From positions 1 to 62,519 of the forward strand of contig JAIOSF010000015.1 of the NCBI GenBank assembly GCA_021107755.1: DNA of 62,519 nt, given 5' to 3'. The notes beneath the pieces were generated by a model. It ran no database searches. It worked only from the letters and a program-made list of their open reading frames with translations, and was not told the origin of the DNA. Positions 4,871-48,555 of this stretch are shown here, piece by piece; within the stretch, counting starts at the first letter, position 1, and the number at the start of each line of letters is the position of its first letter. The stretch comes from Arcobacteraceae bacterium (GTDB lineage Bacteria > Campylobacterota > Campylobacteria > Campylobacterales > Arcobacteraceae). Both the position numbers and the translations under genes were made by a program.

Positions 4871-6853
4871 ATGATTCGTTCTGTTTGTGGTTATTGTGGT
4901 GTTGGATGTGGATTAGAATATGATGAAAAAACTTTAATAGGAGATATAACATATCCTACAAATGAAGGAAAAGTTTGTAGCAAAGGTGTCTCAGAACTTA
5001 TAAGTATACAAACTCCTACACGACTTTTACGACCTCATATAAGAGAAAATATTAATGATAGTTTGATAGTAGCAACTTGGGAAGAATCTGTATCTTTAAT
5101 AGCAAATAAAATAAAATCAACATCAAAAGATAAAATAGGATTTTACCTTTCAGGTCAATTACTAACGGAAGATTACTATATAGCGAATAAATTAGGAAAA
5201 GGTTTTATAGGTACTAATAATGTAGATACTAATAGTAGAACATGTATGGCAAGTGCTGTTGTCGCATATAAAAAATCTCTAGGTGCTGATTTTGTACCAT
5301 TAAGAATGGATGATATTATCCATGCAAATCTTCTTATCCTAGCAGGAGCAAATACTGCTGAAGCACATGTGGTATTTCATAATCAAATTAAAAAAGCAAA
5401 AAAACAGGGCTTAAAAGTTGTTGTTATTGATCCTAGATTTACAGATACAGCAAAAATTGCTGATATTTACTTACCTATTAAACCAGGAAGTGATATAGAT
5501 TTATTTAATCTTGTATCTAAAAGATTAATAGATGAAGATTTATATAATAAAGAATATGTAAAGAATAATATAAATAATTTTGAATTACTAAAAAATAAAT
5601 TTAAAAGAGTAGCTGTTACTAAAATGCTTAAAAGAACTGGATTAACTATAGAACAGTTTGAAGATTTTTGGGCTTTATATAAAGAAAGTGAAAATATTAT
5701 TACTGCTTGGACAATGGGACTTAATCAATCTGTTCAAGGAGTTGATAAAAATTTAGCTCTTATAAATACTCATCTCTTAACGGGAAAAATATTTAAGAGA
5801 GGTAATGGACCTTTATCTTTAACGGGACAGCCAAATGCAATGGGTGGTAGAGAAGTTGGTGGCTTATCCACTATGCTTGCAGTTCATCTTGGATTTGATG
5901 AGGAATCTATAAAAAAAGTATCTGCATTTTGGAATACAGATAAAATTGATAATAAATCAGGTCTTCCTGCTACAAAAATGCTTGATGCAAATTTAGATGT
6001 TTTAATTATATGTCATACAGATCCTGTATACCATTTACCAAATAGAAAAGAGACTGAGGAGTTATTAAAAAAGATTCCATTTGTCGTGGAGATAAATGCT
6101 TATGAAAACAGCGAAACAGCACCTTATTCTCATATAAGACTTCCAGCAGCGCCTTGGGGAGAAAAAGAGGGAACTCAAACAAATCTTGATAGAACTATTA
6201 CAAAACAAGAGAAACTTACACGCATATCTATAGATTGTAAGCCTGATTGGGAGATATTTCAACTTATTGCCCAGAAACTTGGCTATAAAAAACATTTTAA
6301 TTATGCAAATCCACAAGAGATATTTGAAGAGTTTCAAGCAATGAGTAAACTAAATTCTTATATGAATATTCATGAAGCATCTTATGAAAATCTTTCAAAA
6401 GAACCTTTTATCTGGGGTAAAAATATTGATACATTTTTAACACCTGATAAAAAAGGAAACCTATTTTTTGTAGAAAATAAATTATTGAGTGAAAAAACAA
6501 ATTTAGAATATCCATTTATTCTACTAACAGGTAGGACAAGAGATCAGTGGCATACTGGTACAAAAACAAATCTACCTACTACATTGTTAAAATTTAAAGA
6601 ACTAAATTTTTGTGAGATTAATTCTTTTGATGCTGAAGAATTAAATATCAAAGATGGTGATACCATAATTGTAAAGTCAAGAAGAGGGTCATTAGAAACA
6701 AAAGCTTTGATAACTGATACTATTAAACAGAAGATGATATTTATACCAATAAGTAATAGAGAGGTTAATTATCTTACAAATAATTTATTGGACAAAGAGT
6801 CTTTTGAACCAGATTACAACCATAGTGCAATAAAAATAGAAAAACTAAATTAA
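4871..6853 (+). CDS. narB: Assimilatory nitrate reductase, molybdopterin and [4Fe-4S] catalytic subunit
   Basis: This cytoplasmic enzyme reduces nitrate to nitrite for assimilation. The 660 residues begin with the [4Fe-4S] motif C-x2-C-x3-C (Cys6, Cys9, Cys13) and a fourth Cys at 36. The likely molybdenum ligand is Cys125 in SRTCMASAV. FKRGNGPLSLTGQPNAMGGREVGG and the C-terminal molydopterin-dinucleotide-binding domain (RTRDQWHTG) follow. A longer frame opens at 4832, but its start falls at the promoter; GGAGA before ATG 4871 fixes the start. There is no twin-arginine signal and no C-terminal BFD-type [2Fe-2S] domain, so this is the short, ferredoxin/flavodoxin-dependent type. It could also be called nasA. 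Confidence 0.9.
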   Translation: MIRSVCGYCGVGCGLEYDEKTLIGDITYPTNEGKVCSKGVSELISIQTPTRLLRPHIRENINDSLIVATWEESVSLIANKIKSTSKDKIGFYLSGQLLTEDYYIANKLGKGFIGTNNVDTNSRTCMASAVVAYKKSLGADFVPLRMDDIIHANLLILAGANTAEAHVVFHNQIKKAKKQGLKVVVIDPRFTDTAKIADIYLPIKPGSDIDLFNLVSKRLIDEDLYNKEYVKNNINNFELLKNKFKRVAVTKMLKRTGLTIEQFEDFWALYKESENIITAWTMGLNQSVQGVDKNLALINTHLLTGKIFKRGNGPLSLTGQPNAMGGREVGGLSTMLAVHLGFDEESIKKVSAFWNTDKIDNKSGLPATKMLDANLDVLIICHTDPVYHLPNRKETEELLKKIPFVVEINAYENSETAPYSHIRLPAAPWGEKEGTQTNLDRTITKQEKLTRISIDCKPDWEIFQLIAQKLGYKKHFNYANPQEIFEEFQAMSKLNSYMNIHEASYENLSKEPFIWGKNIDTFLTPDKKGNLFFVENKLLSEKTNLEYPFILLTGRTRDQWHTGTKTNLPTTLLKFKELNFCEINSFDAEELNIKDGDTIIVKSRRGSLETKALITDTIKQKMIFIPISNREVNYLTNNLLDKESFEPDYNHSAIKIEKLN

Positions 6854-6867
6854 AAGTGAGATTGAAT

Positions 6868-8130
6868 ATGAAAACAAACGCCACTTTGCCGATTTTACTA
6901 AAAAACCAAAAGATATTACTTATTGGTGGTGGAAATGTAGCTTTACAAAAAGCACAAGTATTAAGTGAAAATAATATTGATTTTATAATAATATCTCAAG
7001 AGCTTAATCAAGAGATACAAAAAATAAAACGAAAACAGATCAAAAAAAAGTTTACACTCAAAGATATAAAAAATTTCTATATTATTATAGATGCAACAGG
7101 AAATCCAAAAGTAGCTAAAAAACTTGTAAACTATAAAAAAACTCACAATATTTTACTCAATGTAGTTGATGTACCAGAGCTTTGTGATTTTTATTTTATG
7201 GCATTAACAGCAAATCAACCTTTACAAATAGCAGTTTCAAGCAATGGTGCATCTCCAACTGCTTCAATGTTTTTTAGAGATGAGTGTGCAAAACTTATCC
7301 CTAAAGATATAAAAAAATATCTTGCACAAAAACAAAAACAAAGAGATGAGGGGATTATAGATGTTACCCAAACACAAAAAGAACTTGAACTTTTAAAAAC
7401 GCAAGTGTATCTTGTGGGATGTGGTTTAGGAGATGTGGAACTTTTGACAATCAAAGCTTATAATATTATCAAAAGTGTTGATGTGGTTTTGTATGATTAT
7501 CTTATAAGTGATGAAATTATGAGTATAGTGCCAAAATCTACAAAAAAAGTATTTGTGGGAAAGAAAAAAGATTTTCACTCAAAAACACAAGAGGAGATAA
7601 ATGCACTTATTATTAAATACGCAAAAAAAGGTTTAACTGTAGCACGACTTAAAAGTGGTGATCCTTTTGTATTTGGTCGTGGTGCTGAAGAGTTGCAAGA
7701 CTTGATAAATGAACAAATACCAACAGAGGTAATACCAGGGATTAGTTCAAGTATAAGTGGCTGTTCAACTGCTGGAATTCCTATAACAGCGAGAGGTTAT
7801 GCAGCAGGATTTACAGTAGTTTCTGCACACTTAAAGGGAAATAGTGTAAACCTTGATTGGGTAGAACTTCTAAAAAAAGAAAATCACACAGTAGTAGTTT
7901 TAATGGGACTTAGTCGTGCAAAAAAGATAGTAGAAGAATCATTAATATTAGGTATACCACAAGAGAAACTTTGTGCGATAGTTTCAAATGCAAGTAGAGC
8001 AAATCAAAAAGTTGTGACGACAACTTTAAAAAATCTTGTAGTTGATTCACAGAATGTAGAACGACCTGCTATTGTGATATTCGGTGATGTAGTAAAATTT
8101 AATTCAATTTTTAATAAGGAAGTAATATGA
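6868..8130 (+). CDS. cysG: Siroheme synthase, precorrin-2 dehydrogenase fused to uroporphyrinogen-III C-methyltransferase
   Basis: This CysG-type fusion makes precorrin-2 from uroporphyrinogen III and oxidises it on the way to siroheme, the cofactor of the next gene product. Residues 1 to about 180 are the NAD-binding dehydrogenase/chelatase part (ILLIGGGNVALQKA). The rest is the SAM-dependent methyltransferase, with VYLVGCGLGDVELLT, GDPFVFGRGAEE and VIPGISS. A GTG at 6856 would add four residues; ATG 6868 is preferred. Its stop overlaps the nirA start (ATGA), so the cofactor enzyme and its user are translationally coupled. At 420 residues it is a little shorter than enterobacterial CysG. Confidence 0.92.
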   Translation: MKTNATLPILLKNQKILLIGGGNVALQKAQVLSENNIDFIIISQELNQEIQKIKRKQIKKKFTLKDIKNFYIIIDATGNPKVAKKLVNYKKTHNILLNVVDVPELCDFYFMALTANQPLQIAVSSNGASPTASMFFRDECAKLIPKDIKKYLAQKQKQRDEGIIDVTQTQKELELLKTQVYLVGCGLGDVELLTIKAYNIIKSVDVVLYDYLISDEIMSIVPKSTKKVFVGKKKDFHSKTQEEINALIIKYAKKGLTVARLKSGDPFVFGRGAEELQDLINEQIPTEVIPGISSSISGCSTAGIPITARGYAAGFTVVSAHLKGNSVNLDWVELLKKENHTVVVLMGLSRAKKIVEESLILGIPQEKLCAIVSNASRANQKVVTTTLKNLVVDSQNVERPAIVIFGDVVKFNSIFNKEVI

Positions 8131-9695
8131 AAGTATTAGAAGAAGCATATCAGCTTAGAAATAAAAAACAAAATAAGATAGAAAAGATAAAGGGGTTAAA
8201 AACTCCATTAAGTGTTTATGAAAGATTAGAGGAAATTTGTGCAGGTGGATTAGACAATCTAAGTGATGAAGATGCTAGTTATTTCCTAAAATGTTTCGGG
8301 CTTTTTAAAAAGAAAGACGGGAAGTTTATGCTTCGTATTCGTATACCTGCAGGTCAAATCACACCTGAACAAGCTATAAAACTAGGCGAACTTTCTAAAA
8401 TTTATGGTGAAGACTACATTGATATCACTACTAGACAACAATTGGAATTTAGATTTTTAGAGTTAGAAAATTTAGCAACTATTTTAAAAGAGCTAGATGG
8501 TGTTGATATCAGTACTTTTCAAACAGGTGTTGATAACTTTAGAAATATTGTGACTAGTTCATTTGATGGCTTGGGAACAAAAGATATTATTAAATGTAAG
8601 CCAATCATCGATGAGTTGCAAGCAATATTTTTTAAAAAAGAGGAATGGATTGCAACATTACCTAGAAAATTTAACACAGCAATTTTAGGAACTAGTGTAA
8701 ATGATTGTAATATTTATGGACATGATTGTTGTTTTGTAGTTGCAAAAAAAGATAATGCACTTGGATTTAATCTATATCTTGGTGGTAAAGTTGGCGTACA
8801 GGCTAAGGACTCAGGACTATTTGTAGCTATAGATGAAGTTATAGTGACTTTTAAAGCTGTTGTGGAACTATTTAAACAATATGGGTTTAGGGATAATCGG
8901 AATAAAAATAGACTTCACTTTTTACTAGAAGCTGTAGGGATGGATGAGTTTATAAAAGCTATTAAAACTACAAGTGGACTTACATATCAAAGTAGTGGTG
9001 AAATTTTAGCTCATGATGAGTATATCCTAGATGAGACAGGAGTATTTAAACTTGATGAAAAATCAACCGCAATTCATTTTTCAGTACCATCTGGAATATT
9101 TAGTGGAACTGATTTAACAAGTGTTGGACTTCTTGCTCGTGGTACAAATTCACAAATTAGATTTTCCGTTGAACAAAGCTTATATCTAATCACAGAAGAG
9201 ACAAATATATCATTGATTCAAAATAGTAATTTATTTCAAGAGTATAAACAATATAACAATACTTACTTTAATCATCAAATTGCATGTGCTGGAACTGCAA
9301 CTTGTGCATTTGGAGTTATTCCAAATAAACCAGATGCGATAGAGATGGCAAATTATTTACAAAAAGAGGTACCTATAAAAAATGGTAAGGTACGAATGTA
9401 TTGGAGTGGATGTGTAAAAGGGTGTGGAATACATGGAGTTGCAGATATTGGATTTGAAGGTTGTAAAGCAAAAGATGAAGATGGAAATAGTTGCTATGGT
9501 GTTCATATCTTTTTAGGTGGAAAAGCTACATTAGAAGCAAAAGAAGCCAGAGTTTTAGCAAAGTCTGTACCTCTGGAAAAAGCAAAATATATAGTACGGG
9601 ATTTAATGATTAAATATAGAGATGAAAAATTAGAATTTGAAAGCTTTGAATCATATGATACTAGGGTATTGAGTAATTTGTCTGAAAATATATAG
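8127..9695 (+). CDS. nirA: Ferredoxin-type nitrite reductase, siroheme and [4Fe-4S] enzyme
   Basis: This 522-residue protein belongs to the nitrite/sulfite reductase family and would reduce nitrite to ammonium with six electrons. Two ferredoxin-like repeats flank the cofactor domains (first near 70-140). The siroheme/[4Fe-4S] cysteines are visible as C-x5-C in ACAGTATCAFG and C-x3-C in GCVKGCGIHG. Sulfite reductase is the alternative, but position behind nitrate reductase and siroheme synthase favours nitrite. There is no NAD(P)H-binding domain, so ferredoxin is the expected donor. It overlaps cysG by four bases and ends the operon. Confidence 0.9.
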   Translation: MKVLEEAYQLRNKKQNKIEKIKGLKTPLSVYERLEEICAGGLDNLSDEDASYFLKCFGLFKKKDGKFMLRIRIPAGQITPEQAIKLGELSKIYGEDYIDITTRQQLEFRFLELENLATILKELDGVDISTFQTGVDNFRNIVTSSFDGLGTKDIIKCKPIIDELQAIFFKKEEWIATLPRKFNTAILGTSVNDCNIYGHDCCFVVAKKDNALGFNLYLGGKVGVQAKDSGLFVAIDEVIVTFKAVVELFKQYGFRDNRNKNRLHFLLEAVGMDEFIKAIKTTSGLTYQSSGEILAHDEYILDETGVFKLDEKSTAIHFSVPSGIFSGTDLTSVGLLARGTNSQIRFSVEQSLYLITEETNISLIQNSNLFQEYKQYNNTYFNHQIACAGTATCAFGVIPNKPDAIEMANYLQKEVPIKNGKVRMYWSGCVKGCGIHGVADIGFEGCKAKDEDGNSCYGVHIFLGGKATLEAKEARVLAKSVPLEKAKYIVRDLMIKYRDEKLEFESFESYDTRVLSNLSENI

Positions 9696-36149: not shown

Positions 36150-36723
36150 AGAAGATAAAAGATTTATGAGAAAAGAGTATGTGTATACTCTTTTTGTTTT
36201 GAAATTTTTACTTGGAATTGGTTTAATATATTGGACAATCGCTACAACAATGAAATCAGATGTGGGGCAAGATGCAGATAATGCTTTTTTATCTACTTAT
36301 CAAGATGTAGATAGAAACTATAATAATATGATGGAATCAAATAAAATATTTGGTAGTAAATATAATGTGAAGTTTTTATTTAATAATCAAGAGGTAGTAG
36401 GGCTTTCTATAGAAGATGTTTTTTTAGCTCAAAGATCTATTCAGGCGAGAAAAGATAGAAAAGATATGGTAAATGTTGGAGAGAATAAATTTACAATATT
36501 AGTACAAGATAAAGATGGAAATGATATAACAAATAAGACTGTGAAGATATTAGTAACAAAGAATACTACACATACAGAAGATGTGAAATTAGAGTATCAA
36601 AATGAAGATACAAAAGAGTTTACAATAAACTCAATAGGATATTGGAATATAACTGGAACTATTGATATCCAAGGAGATAAGGGATTCTTTTATATAAAAA
36701 CAAATGCTAAAAAAGAATCTTAA
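36142..36723 (+). CDS. FixH/CcoH-like membrane protein
   Basis: This 193-residue protein has one N-terminal membrane helix (about 14-36) and a periplasmic beta-sandwich. NKFTILVQDKDGNDITNKTVKILVT and YWNITGTIDIQGDKGFFYI resemble the FixH/YtkA fold. FixH (CcoH) joins CcoI and CcoS in cbb3 oxidase maturation, and those genes are in this window. It overlaps addB by 20 bases. Confidence 0.72.
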   Translation: MLKEDKRFMRKEYVYTLFVLKFLLGIGLIYWTIATTMKSDVGQDADNAFLSTYQDVDRNYNNMMESNKIFGSKYNVKFLFNNQEVVGLSIEDVFLAQRSIQARKDRKDMVNVGENKFTILVQDKDGNDITNKTVKILVTKNTTHTEDVKLEYQNEDTKEFTINSIGYWNITGTIDIQGDKGFFYIKTNAKKES

Positions 36724-39070
36724 AAATTCACTTGTAGTTTTTCCTACATCAAGAGCTATAAGGTATCACCTTGGCTCTTTAAAAAATCAAAATCAACTTT
36801 TAAATAAAAATATTGCTATAGGAGAGTTTTTCTCTCTTGTTACACTTGAAAAAGATAACAAAAACTTTTGTGATAAAAATCTTAAAATCCTTTATCTCAA
36901 AGAAGCTATTAGTTCTATTGATATAGAAACTTTAGGTTTTAGTGGAGATTTCAGTACTTTTTTAAAACAAAGTGATTATATCTTTCGATTTTTTACTGAA
37001 ACTGCAAATGAGTATATAGAGTTTGAAAAACTTTTAGAGTTTGATACATATGCCTTGTATAGTGACCATATTGAGATACTGAAAAATATTCACAAAAACT
37101 ATATAGAGATATTAGAAAAAAATGGTTATACAGATACTATTTTAATGCCTAAAAACTATAAGTTAAATCTTGACTATATAGAACAGTTTGAAACTATCAC
37201 TATTAATTTAGAGGGGTATCTCTCCTCTTTTGAGTTTAAAATTATTCAAGATGTTTCTAAAGTTGTTGATACTTTTATCAATATCACCTTTAATCAATAC
37301 AATCAAAAAAACAAAGAACTTTTTGATGCATTAAAAGATAAGTTACAAATAGATTATAGTTATACAATAGATTTAACTAATATGAAAATAGTTGAGGAAA
37401 AAGAGGATCAAAAGCAAAAACAAAATATAGTAATATCTCCACTTTCATCTCAACTTGAACAAATAGCATTTATAAAATACCATATTACGAAGATGGTGCA
37501 AAATGGAATTGAACCAGAAAATATAGCAGTAGTTGTACCTAATGAACAAATAGCAACATCTCTTGAGCTTTTTGATGATGAACACTATTTTAACTTTGCA
37601 ATGGGAAGATCAATTGGACAAAATAAGATTACAAAAGTTGTAAAGCTTCTTAATAAAATATTGATAGATTTTGAACCAAAAGATTTAGAAAAATTTAAAT
37701 TTTTAGGAATTAAAGAGAATGATTTTGTAAATATATTTAGAGACAATTGGAATAAAGTTCTTACTAAAGAGATATTTGAAAATATATTAAATTATCTTTT
37801 TCTTTTTGAAGAGGATGAAGAGGTTTTAGAAAAACTAGAGCATTTAAAAATTTCACTTGATATTTTGCTTTTTACAAATATAGAAAATAATTATTTAAAT
37901 CTTAAAGTAAAAGAGTTTATTAAACTTTTTATCAATCAACTCTCAAATATAACAGTAGATGATATAAGTGGTGGAAAGATTACAGTTTTAGGGATATTAG
38001 AAACTAGAGCTGTAGAGTTTGATGGGGTTATTGTGATTGATTTTAATGATGATAAGATTCCAAAACTTAGTATCAAAGATAAATTTATCTCTACAAAGAT
38101 AAAAGAGCTTGCAAAGTTACCAACTATTACAGATAGGGAAAATTTGCAAAGATATTACTACAAAAGAGTGTTTGATAAAGCACAACAGATTGCTATTTGT
38201 TTCATAGATGATGAGCAAAGTGTGATGAGTATATTTATCGTACAACTTTTTGAAAACTATAAAGAATTTTTGACTAAAAAAGAGTACAAAACAATCCTTT
38301 ATACACCAAAGAAGTTACAACATTTTAGTAGTGATATTGTACTTGACATAGATTTATCAAAGAAAAGTTGGTCAGCTACAAGTTTGAAGTCATATTTAAC
38401 TTGTAAAAGACAATATTATTTTAACTATATAGCAAAAATAAAAGAGCATATCATAAGTATAAAACCACAAAATTTTGAGGTGGGAAGTATTATCCATAAT
38501 TGTCTTGAAGAGGCTGTAAAAAAAAGTGAATTGAATAATCAATTTATCCATAATTATCTTATAACTTTTCAAAAATCAAATCCATATTTAGTTCTTGAAC
38601 TTGAACTTTGGAAGAAAAAACTTGAAAAACTTGTAGAGTTTGAAAAAGTGCGAGCAGCTAATGGGATTACAATTCAAAGTGTAGAGCAACCATTTAATTT
38701 AGTTTATAATGGTATTAAAATAAAAGGAAAAATTGATAGAATAGATAAGCATAGTGATGGTACTTTTGAGATACTTGACTATAAAACATCATCGAGTTTA
38801 AAAATAGACACACCAAAAACTTATGAAGATTCTGTAGATTTTCAACTAGAATTTTATTATTTAAGTCAAAGAGATAAGATGATAAAAAGTGTAGGGTATT
38901 ATGATCTTAACGATAGTTCTATAAAAAGTGAAGTGGTACTTAATGAGAAGTTAGAATATCTTGATATGCATTTTCAAAGACTAAAAACGACAAGTGTAAA
39001 TTTTGCTTTGACCGATAAACTCTCAAGTTGTCAATTTTGTCCATATAGTATTATTTGTCAAAGAGATTAA
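36704..39070 (+). CDS. addB: AddB-type helicase/nuclease subunit with PD-(D/E)XK domain
   Basis: This 788-residue protein is the AddB partner of AddA in double-strand-break resection. The N-terminus FPTSRAIRYHLGSL is a degenerate helicase region. The C-terminal nuclease shows GKIDRIDKHSDGTFEILDYKTS. The iron-sulfur cysteines are CKRQYYF upstream and C-x2-C-x5-C in CQFCPYSIICQRD at the end. The size matches Campylobacterota AddB rather than the 1150-residue Bacillus form. addA lies 3.25 kb downstream, separated by accessory genes. Confidence 0.88.
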   Translation: MLKKNLKNSLVVFPTSRAIRYHLGSLKNQNQLLNKNIAIGEFFSLVTLEKDNKNFCDKNLKILYLKEAISSIDIETLGFSGDFSTFLKQSDYIFRFFTETANEYIEFEKLLEFDTYALYSDHIEILKNIHKNYIEILEKNGYTDTILMPKNYKLNLDYIEQFETITINLEGYLSSFEFKIIQDVSKVVDTFINITFNQYNQKNKELFDALKDKLQIDYSYTIDLTNMKIVEEKEDQKQKQNIVISPLSSQLEQIAFIKYHITKMVQNGIEPENIAVVVPNEQIATSLELFDDEHYFNFAMGRSIGQNKITKVVKLLNKILIDFEPKDLEKFKFLGIKENDFVNIFRDNWNKVLTKEIFENILNYLFLFEEDEEVLEKLEHLKISLDILLFTNIENNYLNLKVKEFIKLFINQLSNITVDDISGGKITVLGILETRAVEFDGVIVIDFNDDKIPKLSIKDKFISTKIKELAKLPTITDRENLQRYYYKRVFDKAQQIAICFIDDEQSVMSIFIVQLFENYKEFLTKKEYKTILYTPKKLQHFSSDIVLDIDLSKKSWSATSLKSYLTCKRQYYFNYIAKIKEHIISIKPQNFEVGSIIHNCLEEAVKKSELNNQFIHNYLITFQKSNPYLVLELELWKKKLEKLVEFEKVRAANGITIQSVEQPFNLVYNGIKIKGKIDRIDKHSDGTFEILDYKTSSSLKIDTPKTYEDSVDFQLEFYYLSQRDKMIKSVGYYDLNDSSIKSEVVLNEKLEYLDMHFQRLKTTSVNFALTDKLSSCQFCPYSIICQRD

Positions 39071-39169: not shown

Positions 39170-40204
39170 ATGGACAAACTCATACGAAACTCAACAGCGG
39201 AATTTTTGATATTTACTTCCCAAAGTGGTGAGAATAGTATCGAAGTAAAAGTTTTTGATGAGTCCGTTTGGCTGACTCAAGCTATGATTGCTCAGCTTTT
39301 TGATAAGGGTAGAACAACCATAACAGAACACTTAAAAAATATATTTGAAAGTGAAGAGCTAGATGAAAATGCAGTATGTCGGGAATTCCGACACACTGCA
39401 AATGATGGTAAAGCTTACAATACAAAATACTACAACCTCGATGCCATTATCTCCCTAGGATACAGAGTAAATTCAAAAAAAGCGACACAGTTTCGACAAT
39501 GGGCGACAAGTGTACTTAAAGAGTTTGCCATCAAAGGGTTTGTGCTAGATAAAAAACGACTTGAAAATGGTTCATTTTTAGGAGAAAACTATTTTGATAA
39601 ACTCTTAGAAGAGATAAGAGAAATCCGCTTAAGTGAGAGGATGTTTTATCAAAAGATTACCGATATTTATGCCACAAGTATGGATTATAACAAAGAGGAT
39701 ACAACAACTAAAAAGTTTTTTGCAAAAGTTCAGAACAAACTCCATTTTGCCATCCACGGATATACAGCAGCTGAGCTAATCTACAACAGAGCAGATAGTC
39801 AAAAAGAGCATATGGGGCTTAGTTCTTGGGATAATGCACCAGATGGTAAGATACTGCGAACTGATGTAACCATAGCAAAAAATTATCTCTCAAAAGATGA
39901 ACTTGACTCTCTTGGGAGAATCGTCAATGCCTTTTTAGACCTTGCAGAAAATAGAGCAAAAAGAAACATCCCTATGACTATGGAAGATTGGGCAAAAAGG
40001 CTTGATGCTTTTTTGGAGTTTGATGATAGAGAGATTTTACAAGATGCAGGGAAAATCACTAAAAAAATAGCAGATGAACACGCCCTTGGGGAGTTTGAAA
40101 AGTATAGAGTAGTGCAAGACAGACTTTTTATGAATGATTTTGATAAGTTGCTTTTGGATATGAAAAGTGATGAAGATGGGAGTGGGGAGATTTTGGGAAA
40201 CTGA
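39170..40204 (+). CDS. RhuM family protein (virulence-associated, function unresolved)
   Basis: This 344-residue protein matches the RhuM family: SVWLTQAMIAQLFDKGRTTITEHLKNIF, then CREFRHTANDGKAYNTKYYNLDAIISLGYRVNSKKATQFRQWATSVLKEF near 70-120. KVQNKLHFAIHGYTAAELIYNRAD follows. RhuM genes are common in bacterial accessory islands; the N-terminal part looks like an ORF6N/KilA-type DNA-binding region. The gene is richer in G/C than its surroundings and contains a stable hairpin at 39371-39399. Both suggest recent transfer into the addB-addA interval. Confidence 0.88.
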   Translation: MDKLIRNSTAEFLIFTSQSGENSIEVKVFDESVWLTQAMIAQLFDKGRTTITEHLKNIFESEELDENAVCREFRHTANDGKAYNTKYYNLDAIISLGYRVNSKKATQFRQWATSVLKEFAIKGFVLDKKRLENGSFLGENYFDKLLEEIREIRLSERMFYQKITDIYATSMDYNKEDTTTKKFFAKVQNKLHFAIHGYTAAELIYNRADSQKEHMGLSSWDNAPDGKILRTDVTIAKNYLSKDELDSLGRIVNAFLDLAENRAKRNIPMTMEDWAKRLDAFLEFDDREILQDAGKITKKIADEHALGEFEKYRVVQDRLFMNDFDKLLLDMKSDEDGSGEILGN

Positions 40205-40303: not shown

Positions 40304-40309
40304 TATAAT
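40304..40309 (+). promoter_or_regulatory. -10 box ahead of the RexAB-like pair
   Basis: Perfect TATAAT occurs in the 209-base gap after rhuM. A start near 40316 gives the two-gene module its own transcript with a leader of about 60 bases before the short frame at 40379. Nothing else was found in this gap. Confidence 0.5.
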
Positions 40310-40378: not shown

Positions 40379-40417
40379 ATGGGTGAAATTAAATTTATAT
40401 ACAGGTATGATTTATGA
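40379..40417 (+). CDS. Putative 12-residue leader peptide coupled to the next gene
   Basis: ATG at 40379, preceded by AAAGGAATTTTGAG, opens the peptide MGEIKFIYRYDL and stops at TGA 40415-40417. That stop overlaps the next gene's ATG (ATGA). The next gene has only a weak site of its own. The frame may therefore deliver ribosomes by coupling, or be a remnant. Confidence 0.35.
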   Translation: MGEIKFIYRYDL

Positions 40418-41211
40418 GTAATTTAACATTTTCTGCATTTCAATTGATTATTGACGAAAGAGTTCCTACCATTGAAGCATTTTCAGAATACAAAGAAGAA
40501 CAGTACTATGCAAAAGATAATGTTTATAGAATTACTACTCAAAAAATAGATAATACATACTATTGGATTTATATGGAATATGGTGGTGAATTACCATATG
40601 GAGAAAAAGTATATGATAAAGAAAAGTCAGAGATATTAAATAATCCAAGAACAAAAAGTCAAGCAGAATTAAACAAACAGCTTTTTTGCCTTTATGATTT
40701 TGATTTAAATACTTTTTATATTTCTGATGGTAGGAAAAAAGGCTTTCTTGAAGAATATTTAAAGCATAAATTATCAAAAGATATAATAATTAAGAGATTT
40801 TTTAAAAGTCCAGAAGAATTTACTGAATATGTTAAAACGATAGAAAGTATAAGTTTTACTTCGAAAAATAATCTTTTTTCTATCAACAATGACATATTTG
40901 GAGAGCCAAAAGATATATTTGGCTTAGGACAACCAGAAAACTTTAAGATGGATATTACTTATAATGGAAGAAAAGTTACGGAGAATTTTAAAAGAAAATT
41001 TTTCCACCTTCTTTCAAAAAAAGATAATAGTGAAATACAATCTTTAGTATGTATTGGAAAAGATGATAATAAAATGGAAGCCATTTTTGATATTTCAAGT
41101 TTTACACAAACAGTACCTCTAAGTTTAAAAAAAGATGAATTGGGTAGGTATGAACAAAATATAGTGCAAGAAAATTTGTTAAATGTATTAAAGGGACACA
41201 TCAATGTATAA
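40414..41211 (+). CDS. Cytosolic protein of a two-gene module, RexA-like in size and layout
   Basis: This 265-residue soluble protein has no signal peptide. Visible parts are an N-terminal alpha/beta region (YRITTQKIDNTYYWIYMEYGG), a middle part (LFCLYDFDLNTFYISDGRKKGFLEEYLK, then ESISFTSKNNLFS near 150) and a C-terminal region (VTENFKRKFFHLL, IFDISSFTQTVPLSLKKDELG). From memory, lambda RexA (279 residues) has a similar order of segments. The next gene encodes a four-helix membrane protein of RexB size, overlapping by eight bases. KwaB of Kiwa is another candidate relative. Function is inferred as phage defence. Confidence 0.7.
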   Translation: MSNLTFSAFQLIIDERVPTIEAFSEYKEEQYYAKDNVYRITTQKIDNTYYWIYMEYGGELPYGEKVYDKEKSEILNNPRTKSQAELNKQLFCLYDFDLNTFYISDGRKKGFLEEYLKHKLSKDIIIKRFFKSPEEFTEYVKTIESISFTSKNNLFSINNDIFGEPKDIFGLGQPENFKMDITYNGRKVTENFKRKFFHLLSKKDNSEIQSLVCIGKDDNKMEAIFDISSFTQTVPLSLKKDELGRYEQNIVQENLLNVLKGHINV

Positions 41212-41653
41212 TAAACATTTAATATATATAGTTTTTATAGCTATAGGTTTATTTGGAATATTGTTTTTTATTGATATTTCAATAACTGAATCATTAATGC
41301 AAAACTTCATCACTTTCCTTTCAATTACATTTGGTTTTTATATGACAAGCTTATCTGTTTTATATAATTCAAAATATATTAAAAAGCTATATGATGAAAT
41401 TGATCCTAAAAAGCCAACACAAAGAAAAATACACACTTTAAAAAATTATTTTAAAAATAGTGCCTACTGGTCTTTATTTTCTATTGGATTATTAATTCTT
41501 TGTTCATTGACTACAAAGGTTCAAAATACTAATTTACTTTTAAACAGTTTTTTTGAGAGCTTTTTGGTTGCTGTTGTTTTTATAAATTTTGTTTTTATGT
41601 TTTTATTATTTAAAGTATTTATTAATGGACTAATTGATGAGTCGAAAAAATAA
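41204..41653 (+). CDS. Four-helix membrane protein, RexB-like in size and topology
   Basis: This 149-residue protein has four predicted membrane helices (about 5-24, 31-53, 86-105 and 115-142). A basic loop after helix 2 (NSKYIKKLYDE) and a charged C-terminus flank them. Lambda RexB has 144 residues, four helices and a similarly placed basic loop. The eight-base overlap with the upstream gene shows tight coupling. KwaA of Kiwa is also four-helix, but that system usually has the membrane gene first. Confidence 0.7.
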   Translation: MYNKHLIYIVFIAIGLFGILFFIDISITESLMQNFITFLSITFGFYMTSLSVLYNSKYIKKLYDEIDPKKPTQRKIHTLKNYFKNSAYWSLFSIGLLILCSLTTKVQNTNLLLNSFFESFLVAVVFINFVFMFLLFKVFINGLIDESKK

Positions 41654-41759
41654 TATGTTTATTAAAGCTAGAAAAATAAAGTTATCGTTAATTCTTCAGA
41701 CTTAACTGTATTTGGAGGTAAAAATGATATTAAAAAGTCAACATAAAAGGAGAATCAAG

Positions 41760-42320
41760 ATGAAAAAAGTAATATTGGTAGTATTAGCAGGAATGATGTT
41801 TTTAGGTTGTACAAAAAAGTTAGAATCTAATTTAAAACCTTATGTAACACTCAATCAAAATGAAAAACAAAACACAAAAATAAATTTTTTAGGTGTGGAA
41901 GATCAAAGAGTTACACAAGCGGTATCTACAGTTTTAGATGAGGGTGTAGTTGTTGAAAAATATAATGTAAGTAATAATTTAAAAATATGGTATAGAGAAG
42001 CTTTCCTTCGTGAGCTAAAAACTACAGACATGTATGGACAAAATGATGCTATGTACAATGTAATAGTTAATATAAAAAAAATAGAAGCAATCTATAAAAA
42101 AGATAAATTAGATAAAAAAAATATGCAAGTATCTATTTCATTAGAGTTAGTTATACAACAAGGTAGTACAACAACGACTTCAAATATCACAATTCATCAA
42201 ACTGCTTATAAGATGATGGTTTCAGATGCAAGTGATTTTGAAGATATATTAAATGAAGCAATCAGAGATTCCGTTTCTAAAACAGTAGCAATACTTATTA
42301 AAAAAGTGAATAATCTATAA
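41760..42320 (+). CDS. YajG-like lipoprotein
   Basis: This 186-residue lipoprotein has lipobox MMFLGC (Cys near 17) and a domain resembling uncharacterised YajG-type lipoproteins (INFLGVEDQRVTQAV, LKIWYREAFLRELKTT, YNVIVNIKKIEAIYK). AAAGGAG before ATG 41760 fixes the start; an upstream in-frame ATG at 41724 is less likely. It is three bases from addA and probably belongs to the ancestral operon rather than to the inserted module. Confidence 0.8.
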   Translation: MKKVILVVLAGMMFLGCTKKLESNLKPYVTLNQNEKQNTKINFLGVEDQRVTQAVSTVLDEGVVVEKYNVSNNLKIWYREAFLRELKTTDMYGQNDAMYNVIVNIKKIEAIYKKDKLDKKNMQVSISLELVIQQGSTTTTSNITIHQTAYKMMVSDASDFEDILNEAIRDSVSKTVAILIKKVNNL

Positions 42321-42323
42321 TAT

Positions 42324-45071
42324 ATGAAACCGTATTTAGCCTTAAAAGCCAGTGCCGGGAGTGGAAAAACATTTGCATTAACAGTGCGATATATTTCACT
42401 TCTATTGCTTGATGCCAAACCAAATGAGATATTAACCCTCACCTTTACAAACAAAGCAGCAGCTCAAATGTCTCAGCGAATCTATGACACACTTTTAAAT
42501 CTTGGAAATGATGAGGCTATTTTAAGTGCTATCATTGAAGAAACAAGTTTATCAAAAGAACAAATAATCCAAAAGAAACAACTCTTAGTAGAAAAGTTTA
42601 TCTCTAGTGAATTAGCAATTTATACAATCGATAAATTTATCAATAAAATTTTACGAGAGTTTAGTGGATATATTGGGATAAATGATGATTTTGAGATAAA
42701 GTTTGATGATGAGGAGTTATTACTTTACAAGTTTTTAACTTCACTTGATGAGACTCAATTTGAATCACTTATCTCTTTTGCCCATCTTGAAAACAAAAAG
42801 CTTAACTCCATAGTAGAACTTTTTAAACTGCTTGAAGAGAAGAATGAAAAAAACGAGATAGTAGAGTATCCAAAAGGAAGTTATGAAGCTGTAAAAATAG
42901 CTATCTTAGAAGATGCAAATAGTATAAAAGAGTTTGTAGAGAAAAGTGAACTATCAAAGTCTGCTTTTAATGCAGTTGATTTTAATAGTGTTGAAACACT
43001 TCTTGATAAAGGGAAAACTTGGCTTACAAAAGAGAGCTTAGGTGAATTTTCTTATTTTAAAAAAGCAAAGCCACCAGTAGAACTTGATGAGAATTTAAGT
43101 CGTCTAAAGCAAAATATCACACTTTATTATCAAATACAAGAGAGCTATACTTTAGAAAATCTTTTTAAAATATTTGATGATTTTAAAAACTTTAGAGATA
43201 AATACAACAAGCAACGAAACTCTTTGGAGTTTAGTGATATTACAAATATTGTTTATAAACTTCTTGAAAACTATATAGAGAAAGACTTTTTATATTTTCG
43301 ACTTGATACAAAATACAATCATATCTTAATAGATGAGTTTCAAGATACCTCTACTTTACAATTTAAGATTTTATTTCATCTTATTGATGAGATAATCTCT
43401 GGAAATCCAGAAGTATTTAAAACATTTTTTTATGTGGGGGATATAAAGCAATCTATCTATAGATTTAGAGGTGGAACAAAAGAGCTTTTTGATTATGTCT
43501 CAAGTATATTTCATCCTCTTTTAAAAGTAGAACTTCTTGATACTAACTATAGAAGTAGTAACAATGTAGTGAAGTTTGTTAATAATACTTTTAATAAGTT
43601 ATCAAACTATGAGTATGATGAACAAAAAGTAAATTCTAAAATTGATGGATATGTAGAAGTTTGTAGCGTAACTGAGGAGAAAGAGCTTTTTTATGATGAG
43701 GTGTATAAAAAAGTTGATGAACTTTTAGTTGCAGGAGTTCAACCAAACAATATAGCAATATTAACCTATACAAATGCAGATGTATTAGCAATCTATGAGT
43801 ATCTAAAACAAAAAAAGCCAATACTAGATGTGGTTACAGAGATGACCTCAAAACTTATCAACCAAAACAATGTAAAAGCTGTGATAAACGCCGTTAAATA
43901 TCTCTACTTCAAAGAAAATATTTATAAAGTAAATTTCAATAGCTTAGTAGGAAGAGAGTATTTTGAAAAGTTTAATTTTACAATTGATATAGAAACTACA
44001 GATTTAGTAACTATCATCAAAAAACTAAGCTACCACTTTGGGATAGTTGATGAAAATGTGATACGACTTATTGAGCTATCTCGTGGGTATGAAAGTATCA
44101 CAGACTTTGTGTATGATATAGATAAAGATGATACTGCAATGGTATCACAAAACAAAACTGGACTTACTATTCTTACTATTTTTAAATCAAAAGGGTTAGA
44201 GTTTGACACTGTTATAGTATGTGATAGAGTGACAAAAAAAGTTGCAAATAGAAGTTCACTACTGTTTGAATACAATGATATAGAACTTCAAAAGATTTAC
44301 TACAAAAGAGCAAATAGAGAAAACTTCGATAGATTTTATGAAGAAGCTATAGATAAAGAGAAAAAACTGGTAGTAGCCGATGAACTCAATATCTTATATG
44401 TAGCACTTACACGGGCAAAAAATAATATGATAGTATTAAAAAAAGAGAAAAGTAGTGTCTATGAGTATCTAGGAGATTTTCAAGCTCAAACTTTAGGAAC
44501 ACTCTTTATTGCACCACAAAAAGAAATGTATAAAGAGCAAACATCACCAATATCATACACACCACAAAACTTTGGATATCAAGAGAAAGAGAAATCAGAA
44601 CTTGAAGATAAAGATACTATAAAAGCGCGATATTTTGGGATAGCAACTCACTATTGTTTGGAGATGATGAAAAGTTTTGATATAACAAGTTTAGAAAAAT
44701 CAATCCTTCTAACACAAAATAAGTTTATCAATTTATTGACAAAAGAGCAATTTAATGATATTTTTTCACGAATCAAACTTCTTATACAAAATGAGAAGTT
44801 TCAAAATATTGTAAATAATAGTAACTTTACTAAAGAACAATCGCTAATGTTTGAAAATGAACATAAGATTATTGATCTACTTGTACAAAAAGAGGAGAGC
44901 TTTGTAGTGGTTGATTATAAAACAACACTAGGACAAAGTTATACACATATAGAACAAGTGCAAAAGTATGTAGAGGCTATTAGAAATATTGTGAAATGCG
45001 AAGATGTAACGGGATATGTTGTATATCTTCAAAAAGGGAATATAGATTTATTAGAGGTAAAATATGAATAA
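42324..45071 (+). CDS. addA: AddA-type UvrD/Rep helicase and nuclease (RecB-like)
   Basis: This 915-residue protein is the motor and second nuclease of AddAB. Helicase motifs run in order: KASAGSGKTFALTVRY (I), LTFTNKAAAQM (Ia), ILIDEFQDTSTLQF (II), VGDIKQSIYRFRGG (III), NYRSS (IV), TIFKSKGLEFDTVIV (V) and LYVALTRAKNNM (VI). The C-terminal nuclease shows VVVDYKTT near 865. It repairs breaks and degrades foreign linear DNA. Confidence 0.92.
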   Translation: MKPYLALKASAGSGKTFALTVRYISLLLLDAKPNEILTLTFTNKAAAQMSQRIYDTLLNLGNDEAILSAIIEETSLSKEQIIQKKQLLVEKFISSELAIYTIDKFINKILREFSGYIGINDDFEIKFDDEELLLYKFLTSLDETQFESLISFAHLENKKLNSIVELFKLLEEKNEKNEIVEYPKGSYEAVKIAILEDANSIKEFVEKSELSKSAFNAVDFNSVETLLDKGKTWLTKESLGEFSYFKKAKPPVELDENLSRLKQNITLYYQIQESYTLENLFKIFDDFKNFRDKYNKQRNSLEFSDITNIVYKLLENYIEKDFLYFRLDTKYNHILIDEFQDTSTLQFKILFHLIDEIISGNPEVFKTFFYVGDIKQSIYRFRGGTKELFDYVSSIFHPLLKVELLDTNYRSSNNVVKFVNNTFNKLSNYEYDEQKVNSKIDGYVEVCSVTEEKELFYDEVYKKVDELLVAGVQPNNIAILTYTNADVLAIYEYLKQKKPILDVVTEMTSKLINQNNVKAVINAVKYLYFKENIYKVNFNSLVGREYFEKFNFTIDIETTDLVTIIKKLSYHFGIVDENVIRLIELSRGYESITDFVYDIDKDDTAMVSQNKTGLTILTIFKSKGLEFDTVIVCDRVTKKVANRSSLLFEYNDIELQKIYYKRANRENFDRFYEEAIDKEKKLVVADELNILYVALTRAKNNMIVLKKEKSSVYEYLGDFQAQTLGTLFIAPQKEMYKEQTSPISYTPQNFGYQEKEKSELEDKDTIKARYFGIATHYCLEMMKSFDITSLEKSILLTQNKFINLLTKEQFNDIFSRIKLLIQNEKFQNIVNNSNFTKEQSLMFENEHKIIDLLVQKEESFVVVDYKTTLGQSYTHIEQVQKYVEAIRNIVKCEDVTGYVVYLQKGNIDLLEVKYE

Positions 45072-46672: not shown

Positions 46673-47575
46673 ATGATAGTTTACACGCGTACCAATATAT
46701 TTGAATCAAATGCACAAGTCTTGGTAAATACTGTTAATACTGTTGGGGTAATGGGAAAGGGATTGGCAAAAGAATTTAAAAGACTTTACCCTGAGATGTT
46801 TAATAGTTATCAAAAATATTGTGAAAATAAGCAATTTACAATAGGTAAACTACAAATATTTAAAACATCAAATAAATGGATATTAAACTTTCCCACAAAA
46901 GAAAACTGGAGAAATTCTTCTAAAATTGAATATATAGAGAAGGGTTTACAAAAATTTATAGAGCAGTACCAAGTTCAAGGTATAAAGTCTATCTCTTTTC
47001 CAATGTTAGGATGTGGGAATGGTGGTTTAGATTGGGATAATATAGTAAAACCATTAATGGAAAAGTATCTTAGTAATTTGCCAATTGATGTTTTTATTCA
47101 TACATCTTCCAAGGATATATTTTCACCTGAGCATAAAAATCAAAAAGAGATAGATAATTGGCTTAAAAATGAAGTACATTATTTATCAAGTCTAGAATTT
47201 GTTACTCATGTAAAGCAAGAATATTCTAATTTAATAAATTCTGTTACTAATAAAAAATTAGGGTTAAGTATGGATGTATCTTTAGAGTCATTTGATGGTG
47301 AAGATGTTTTTTGTTTAAAATCAAATGAAAATAGAATTTGTATTTCAGAAAATACATTGACTAATATATGGCAAGTTTTAAAAAGTGGAGGTATATTAAA
47401 TAAGAATATGCTCTCTCAAGAGTTAGCAAAATATTCTGATATGGTAATGTTGTTTTTATCAAAAATAGAATATATTAATTTAACACAACTTGATGATGAA
47501 AATATTGCAGTAAGATTATTGGCTTATAATCAGCCCAAAACAAAAAATAAAAAAGAAATTTTTGTAGCGGCATGA
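46673..47575 (+). CDS. darG: DarG-like macrodomain antitoxin with C-terminal extension
   Basis: The N-terminal half of this 300-residue protein is a macrodomain that removes ADP-ribose from thymidine in DNA. VNTVNTVGVMGKGLAKEFK near 18-36, the NFPTKENWR segment with the Lys needed by DarG (Lys76) and FPMLGCGNGGLDW near 109-121 are visible. The C-terminal 150 residues include a helical segment (SGGILNKNMLSQELAKYSDMV) and may bind the toxin. It overlaps the toxin-like gene by four bases (ATGA) and precedes it, the reverse of the usual darT-darG order. Confidence 0.82.
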   Translation: MIVYTRTNIFESNAQVLVNTVNTVGVMGKGLAKEFKRLYPEMFNSYQKYCENKQFTIGKLQIFKTSNKWILNFPTKENWRNSSKIEYIEKGLQKFIEQYQVQGIKSISFPMLGCGNGGLDWDNIVKPLMEKYLSNLPIDVFIHTSSKDIFSPEHKNQKEIDNWLKNEVHYLSSLEFVTHVKQEYSNLINSVTNKKLGLSMDVSLESFDGEDVFCLKSNENRICISENTLTNIWQVLKSGGILNKNMLSQELAKYSDMVMLFLSKIEYINLTQLDDENIAVRLLAYNQPKTKNKKEIFVAA

Positions 47576-48555
47576 CAGAAAAAGAAGAATATTTAGTTTC
47601 CTTTAAATCTCAACAGAAAAAGAGATTTAAAAATGGTTTTCAGAATTGGTGGATTGATTTTATTTTTCATTATAACGATTTGCATAATATAGTGTCTATT
47701 TTAAATAGTGGTAAACTATATAGTAGAAATAAAGTTACAGATTTAGCTATTTTGAAAAAAGACATAGCGAATGATGATGTAATATCTCATACAGATATTA
47801 ATGTACATAATTATGTTAGATTTTACTTTGGAGCAAAAACACCTACATTATATAACAATGAAGGCTTAATACCTACAAATGAAATAAAAGATAATGCTCA
47901 TTGTCCTGTACCTATATTTTTACTTTTTGATTTTATAAATATATTGTCTATGGATAATAGTTATTTTAGTAATGGAAATATGGGAGCTAAGAACCCTGAG
48001 GTATATTCTGATGTTATTGATTTAAATAAATTGGAATGGAATTATATTTATCATAGAGAAAGTCTATATGGATATGAAAACTATAGGCATATAAATTATT
48101 GTAGAAATGCAGAAGTTTTGATTGAAAATGAATTAAATATATATGATAGCTTAAAATGGATATGTGTAAGATCAATTGCAGATAAGGAGACCATTTTAAA
48201 TTTAGTTAACCCGGACGCAAAAGAAAGAATTAAAAATAAAATAAAAGTATTTACTTCTGATGGGTTATTTCATAATAAAAGATTATTTTTAAATGAAGTA
48301 GTATTACATGAAAATAGAATAGATGTAAATTTTATTAATACAAATAATAAAATTTTTACAGTAGAAGTTTATATGAAAAGCTTATCGAATGGTAAAGAAA
48401 TTAATATTAAAAAAGATAATTATAAAGTTTCATCAAATTTTTATTTGGATATAAAAGAGTTAGATAAATCACAAGGTATATATTTTATACTGAGTATAGA
48501 TAACTATAAAGTTTATGATAATATTTTATTTGATACTAATGAAATTTTAATATAA
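47572..48555 (+). CDS. darT: DarT-like DNA ADP-ribosyltransferase toxin
   Basis: This 327-residue protein matches the DarT pattern. HYNDLHNIVSILNSGKLYSRN near 33-53 would be the NAD pocket, with VHNYVRFYFGAKTP near 78-91, PVPIFLLFDF and a candidate catalytic Glu181 in CRNAEVLIENEL. DarT ADP-ribosylates thymidine in single-stranded DNA and defends against phages. The protein is about 110 residues longer than typical DarT; the extra C-terminal domain (about 220-327) is beta-rich and unassigned. It is translationally coupled to the macrodomain gene. Confidence 0.78.
   Translation: MTEKEEYLVSFKSQQKKRFKNGFQNWWIDFIFHYNDLHNIVSILNSGKLYSRNKVTDLAILKKDIANDDVISHTDINVHNYVRFYFGAKTPTLYNNEGLIPTNEIKDNAHCPVPIFLLFDFINILSMDNSYFSNGNMGAKNPEVYSDVIDLNKLEWNYIYHRESLYGYENYRHINYCRNAEVLIENELNIYDSLKWICVRSIADKETILNLVNPDAKERIKNKIKVFTSDGLFHNKRLFLNEVVLHENRIDVNFINTNNKIFTVEVYMKSLSNGKEINIKKDNYKVSSNFYLDIKELDKSQGIYFILSIDNYKVYDNILFDTNEILI

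Follow-up and report, generated by a model that had tools for sequence, protein, structure and literature searches.

A candidate Rex/DUF4747-like two-gene module in restriction-modification operons of Campylobacterota

The central result of this study is that a pair of overlapping genes, here named A and B, recurs inside restriction-modification (R-M) operons of Campylobacterota. Such a placement was found at 7 of the 11 loci of the pair in this phylum, and, as R-M genes form a small share of any genome, we infer that this is far above expectation. The pair was analyzed in a stretch of 62,519 nucleotides from an Arcobacteraceae bacterium (GenBank assembly GCA_021107755.1, contig JAIOSF010000015.1), which is called the window below. 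Our working interpretation, which we regard as fairly likely, is that A-B represents a divergent two-gene abortive-infection module of the RexAB/DUF4747 (CarolAnn/Sbash-like) type, carried as a portable cassette of R-M operons in Campylobacterota. What is new is a family missed by current defence models and repeatedly inserted in very different types of restriction operon in this phylum. The initial annotation of this DNA, which had proposed a Rex-like phage-exclusion pair, did not contain the R-M association, the main fact reported here.

Genes A and B

The features of the window and the gene orders of the R-M-associated loci are listed in Table 1. A and B are co-directional, and the overlap or abutment of their reading frames recurs in homologous loci (8 nts in L025 and L048, 11 nts in L029 and L030, and 0 nts in L031), an arrangement that points to translational coupling. 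When compared with L025 and L048, its nearest homologous loci, A has a dN/dS of ~0.11 (dN ~0.04, dS ~0.4) and B a dN/dS of 0.16-0.21 (dN ~0.06-0.07, dS ~0.33-0.37), and the majority of substitutions in both genes fall at codon position 3. Given these low ratios and this codon-position bias, A and B are genuine genes under purifying selection.

B contains four hydrophobic segments, and the loop between TM2 and TM3 is basic (9 K/R vs 3 D/E), which is the layout of lambda RexB. Its AF2 model is all helical and of fair quality (pLDDT 72). The model of A is poor (mean pLDDT 51), being fair for residues 5-128 and of low confidence past residue 128. Only proteins of the window and of related loci were modelled, so the alignments behind the models were shallow. 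The ORFs, their overlap, the hydrophobic segments and the helical model bear out the initial annotation in its description of a soluble protein followed by an overlapping four-helix membrane protein. Its likening of the pair to RexA-RexB in size (265 and 149 aa vs 279 and 144 aa), order (soluble gene, then four-TM gene) and topology, and of the basic loop after helix 2 to that of RexB, held as well.

Table 1. Features of the window and gene orders at R-M-associated loci of the A-B pair.
Feature	Location	Strand	Evidence or description
addB	36704..39070		upstream of the RhuM-A-B block
RhuM-family gene (PADLOC candidate PDC-S05)	39170..40204	+	Pfam E 1.6e-110; PADLOC PDC-S05 E 5e-155
Hairpin	39370..39400	-	inside RhuM
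TATAAT, possible -10 box	40304..40309	+	upstream of A; not above chance
Gene A	40414..41211	+	ORF; 265 aa, soluble; proposed sensor, remote DUF4747/RexA-type
A/B overlap, 8 nt	41204..41211	+	sequence; overlap or abutment recurs in homologous loci
Gene B	41204..41653	+	ORF; 149 aa, four-helix membrane protein; proposed effector, remote RexB-type
addA	41712..45071		downstream of the RhuM-A-B block
DarG/DarT	46673..48555		toxin-antitoxin pair
Locus L031 (type I)			HsdM-HsdS-A-B-RhuM-HsdR
Locus L027 (type III)			Mod-A-B-RhuM-Res
Locus L048			RhuM N-terminal domain-A-B-AAA_15 ATPase-Mod
Locus L001 (IIG/MmeI-like)			MmeI-A(broken)-B-RhuM-helicase-GIY-YIG
Loci L028 and L032			Eco57I-type IIG enzyme-A-B
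Locus L029 (PabI-type)			A-B-putative methylase-R.Pab1

Distribution, pairing and horizontal transfer

Of 397 genomes sampled from the phylum, 10 contain the pair, and the A and B profiles recover the same ten; A and B are thus rare and strictly paired. Two further weak matches were false, namely an A-profile match in L049, where no A gene is present, and a genome match in L052, which belongs to an HrcA-like repressor. In L001 (genome G035; 8001-9102), a frameshift and an internal deletion disrupt A, but B is intact. The record of this metagenome-assembled genome is titled Helicobacter cetorum yet comes from a 'SulCav' sample, so its name may be wrong. Two remnants in a decayed state are present in genome G363: in one, part of A is fused in frame to part of B (L026, 1333-2139), and the other is a fragment of B (L034, 515-949). 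A relative of A was also detected outside Campylobacterota, in a GC-rich viral contig (L046, 7986-8853), where the A-like gene adjoins a Rha/KilAC antirepressor and is shortened by an apparent IS5-type transposase gene.

The A and B proteins of this genome share 87-91% identity with those of G454 and G473, which belong to other families, whereas AddA, a core protein, shows 58-70% identity in close relatives and 43% in a member of the family of G473 (f6). This comparison indicates that the A-B pair moves horizontally.

Association with R-M operons

Besides the seven R-M operons of Table 1, A-B occurs in the window, in L025 (with GNAT and ASCH genes), in L030 (near an IS110 transposase) and in the decayed remnant L026. 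The homologues lie in variable defence operons and outside prophages, in agreement with the accessory character first suggested for the pair. In L048, the gene adjoining A-B (5622-6500) combines the N-terminal part of RhuM with an unrelated C-terminal part resembling a phospholipase-D-type domain.

Pairs of KwaA and KwaB (Kiwa) were observed at two other loci. In L051 (1429-3477) the order is HsdM fragment-KwaA-KwaB-HsdS, and in L050 (1432-3008) KwaA-KwaB precedes a short S-like ORF; both pairs lie in type I R-M surroundings. As Kiwa pairs, too, occur in such surroundings, carriage of membrane two-gene modules as passengers of R-M operons is suggested to be a general theme in these bacteria.

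Surroundings of the pair in the window

No R-M gene adjoining A-B was found in the window; a type I-like methylase gene is present in the same genome on a different contig. RhuM adjoins A-B also in L001, L027 and L031, and in L048 as its N-terminal part. It is probably an accessory gene of R-M operons and a frequent neighbour of A-B, not a third subunit. The GC content of RhuM is 0.35-0.37 vs 0.24-0.31 in the flanking DNA. Within it lies a 13-pair hairpin with a T-rich tail, the sole terminator-like site of the region.

The RhuM-A-B block is preceded by addB and followed by a lipoprotein gene and then addA. Since addB directly precedes addA in two more distant relatives (L093 and L096), it is plausible that the block was inserted between addB and addA genes that were ancestrally paired; closer relatives have genes other than addB upstream of addA. 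The pair had been placed in accessory DNA beside RhuM. RhuM was confirmed by Pfam and PADLOC, but the DNA is accessory only in part, as addB and addA flank the block. A reading of A-B as prophage genes here was ruled out by their core-gene and R-M-gene neighbours. A further defence system, the toxin-antitoxin pair of DarG (macro domain) and DarT (ssDNA ADP-ribosyltransferase), is located 5 kb downstream.

A dedicated promoter had also been proposed on account of the TATAAT box upstream of A. The sequence is present; however, the window contains 131 copies of it vs 159 expected, and the region 17 promoter-like sites vs 18 expected. As neither is commoner than chance, a promoter dedicated to A-B is not supported.

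Sequence and profile comparisons

HMM scans of Pfam, PADLOC, PHROGs and NCBIfam, including the models of RexA, RexB, KwaA and KwaB, assigned no family to A or B. These negatives count because the models detect true members: Pfam matches lambda RexA at 1e-97 and RexB at 8.5e-92 (PF15969/PF15968), PADLOC matches RexA at 9e-110, and the KwaA and KwaB models likewise recover theirs. A did not match the DUF4747 HMM (PF15931) at E up to 1; this model found nothing in the genome of the window and, among the sampled relatives, matched in G250 only. Searches of PDB sequences with phmmer and hmmsearch gave no matches. With tblastn against phages and plasmids, no match was obtained for A or its viral relative, and B had only chance matches in phages (E 7).

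Because direct tests against lambda-type RexA/RexB sequences were negative, we collected the DUF4747 family, a wider group that has been linked by HHpred to RexA, Sbash gp30 and CarolAnn gp44 (PMC6426596, PMC6426606). In each collected member, the next gene downstream encodes a multi-helix membrane protein. Profiles were compared by a home-made test of moderate strength, using composition-corrected scores, three shuffling schemes and 250 shuffles. A aligned with the DUF4747 profile over the whole length (z ~4 in all three schemes, matched by 0-1 of 250 shuffles), and B resembled the profile of the DUF4747 membrane partners more weakly (z 2.1-4.1, matched by 0-6 of 250 shuffles). In the same test, the positive control of DUF4747 vs Sbash/CarolAnn gave z 5.2-7.3, comparisons with Kiwa gave z ~1 or less, and A vs lambda-type RexA and B vs lambda-type RexB were at chance.

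Two other approaches were set aside. With shallow alignments, hhalign returned a probability of <2% for every pair, including the accepted DUF4747-RexA and RexA-Sbash relations used as controls, and was dropped as blind to these relations. A single-sequence ranking did not distinguish DUF4747 members from AT-rich decoys and was given no weight, as AT-biased composition dominates it.

Membership of RexA/RexB proper is therefore not supported, either by the Pfam and PADLOC models, which miss A and B, or by the lambda-type profile tests. Kinship with KwaA/KwaB, which the initial annotation had listed for checking, also fell away, given the lack of an HMM match, the profile result and a reversed gene order, with the membrane gene second and not first. 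What survives of the Rex reading is that, in profile, A remotely resembles DUF4747 and B the DUF4747 partner, together with the Foldseek links described below. These comparisons support, though indirectly, a view of A-B as putative remote kin of the Rex/DUF4747 type, not as members of RexA/RexB.

Structure comparisons

Foldseek of the A model (pLDDT 51) against the PDB gave no significant or convincing match. Among viral predicted structures (BFVD), the same model reached, at scores exceeding the noise, a 277-aa siphovirus protein (prob 1.00), a 162-aa fragment (prob 0.98), a 314-aa protein of Siphoviridae sp. ctylc9 (prob 0.96) and, at this low model confidence, a 'Recombination-associated protein', which is the name of RdgC (prob 0.89). 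RexA and RdgC are structurally related (PMC11077077). B matched best a 172-aa protein encoded by ctylc9 (prob 1.00); its matches also included a 165-aa protein from phage Sbash (prob 0.99, TM 0.62/0.57, E 0.26). Judged by length, the latter is gp31, the product of the sole 165-aa CDS in Sbash; gp31 is a proven RexB-like, four-TM partner required for Sbash defence (PMC6426596). That separate searches with A and B both arrived at ctylc9 seems hard to explain by chance, with the qualification that the matches have weak E-values, that the model of A is poor, and that the two ctylc9 genes need not be adjacent.

Proposed function and rival explanations

A-B probably provides a second, portable line of defence against phages. 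In the cytosol, A would act as the sensor, with a DNA-handling fold of the RexA/RdgC kind, and would recognise an infection signal; candidate signals include protein-DNA complexes of the phage, DNA intermediates, and a restriction system either blocked or at work. Activated A would then turn on B, a predicted four-helix inner-membrane protein, and B would permeabilise the membrane, so that the infected cell is stopped before progeny are made. The placement of the pair in R-M operons suggests, as our best guess, that A-B may serve as a backup that fires upon restriction failure, like PrrC, whose gene belongs to a type I operon. The type I enzyme to which PrrC is linked keeps it silent, and an anti-restriction factor of the phage sets it free (PMC2610378). 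In P. putida, excess RexApp renders RexBpp toxic and harms the membrane (PMC12894663), and Sbash 30/31 and CarolAnn 43/44 give defence (PMC6426596, PMC6426606). We infer the sensor and effector roles, the membrane damage and the coupling to R-M failure by analogy. As A is broken and B intact in L001, B alone appears to be tolerated, which is as expected for a sensor-dependent effector and not for an unrestrained toxin. A bolder version, offered tentatively since we find it doubtful, is that A-B is a Rex-fold sensor/membrane-effector cassette freely exchanged between restriction systems of types I, II and III, whose failure it monitors; it would serve as a 'restriction beaten' alarm that is independent of enzyme type and leads to membrane-based shutdown of the cell.

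A convergent two-gene membrane defence module, resembling RexAB/DUF4747 in size, order and topology only, would fit the lack of a sequence-family match for A and B, the negative hhalign result and the low-confidence A model. Such convergence appears rather unlikely in the face of the shuffle-controlled profile likeness of both proteins and of Foldseek searches that lead from A and B to the same phage genome and from B also to Sbash gp31. We likewise consider it unlikely that A-B is a regulator or subunit of R-M systems, for example a membrane tether that puts restriction at the site of DNA entry and aids it with no cell killing. The embedding of the pair in several types of R-M operon would be accounted for, and the KwaA-KwaB pairs in type I R-M surroundings occur in the same bacterial order; but the partner enzymes are of unrelated types, which makes a specific subunit contact unlikely, the window, L025 and L030 have A-B without adjoining R-M genes, and the Foldseek and profile links favour Rex-type pairs and not Kiwa.

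Strict pairing, overlap and mobility are also what a toxin-antitoxin-like pair would display, with B as toxin and A as antidote, kept for stability and having no phage-defence role. This alternative is very improbable: in L001 it is A that is broken and B that is intact, the reverse of what an antidote A predicts, and the pair resides in R-M operons and not on plasmids, the plasmid search being without a match. The reading of A-B as a divergent RexAB/DUF4747-type module in R-M operons is the one we retain.

For seventy years, research has treated lambda Rex as an oddity of prophages. If our reading is true, a Rex-type pair unseen by present models travels in unrelated restriction systems and newly ties abortive infection to restriction. 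The operons would then offer a compact setting in which to test, with and without a defined restriction enzyme, the long-standing question of the signal that RexA senses, and A-B would be a new family for annotators to add.

Comparison with known defence systems

The initial annotation held that chromosomal, non-prophage Rex homologues would be notable. Non-prophage loci were indeed found, although the point is less notable than supposed, since Rex-type operons outside prophages are already known (PMC11077077, PMC13373217). Lambda RexA/RexB share with A-B the size, gene order, four TM helices and basic TM2-TM3 loop; unlike them, A-B is missed by the RexA/RexB models, is at chance in the profile tests and has no prophage link. 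The GenBank record MW057783.1, 'Campylobacter phage CJLB-4', contains a RexA that is 100% identical to that of lambda in a 48-kb genome and resembles a mislabelled lambda record. The RexAB-type pair PP_5643/PP_5644 of P. putida, compared here by description, consists of a sensor and a membrane effector, as proposed for A-B, and its RexA link, too, is seen by remote-homology methods only; it is prophage-borne, unlike A-B (PMC12894663).

Kiwa also combines a multi-helix membrane protein with a soluble partner and in this phylum is likewise found in type I R-M surroundings, but its membrane gene comes first, whereas in A-B the soluble gene does. The PrrC gene is located between hsdS and hsdR. PrrC is an abortive-infection gene with genetic linkage to a type I R-M enzyme that silences it (PMC2610378), and A-B is similarly borne by R-M operons at most of its loci, the window not being one of them. 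PrrC is an anticodon nuclease, whereas A-B has no nuclease domain and includes a membrane protein.

The closest parallels are the pairs of DUF4747 and membrane proteins (CarolAnn gp44/gp43, Sbash gp30/gp31, Sejanus gp46/gp45, L072 and others), in which, as in A-B, a soluble gene is followed by a multi-helix membrane gene. L072 (1465-3598) is a true DUF4747 pair in a Campylobacterota genome, adjoining a CI/LexA-like repressor gene, so that both Rex-type lineages occur in the phylum. A differs from DUF4747 in having no HMM match and no 'NI.LHPH' motif and in being shorter. DUF4747 pairs lie beside a CI-type repressor, whereas A-B inserts in R-M operons and has RhuM, addB and addA around it in the window and R-M genes elsewhere. 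On the side of likeness stand the profile scores of A with DUF4747 and of B with the partner, the fold of B, which is close to that of Sbash gp31, and the neighbourhood itself: in CapKS loci, DUF4747/CarolAnn operons lie downstream of R-M operons, so that some bacterial DUF4747 operons, like A-B, are found near R-M genes (PMC13373217).
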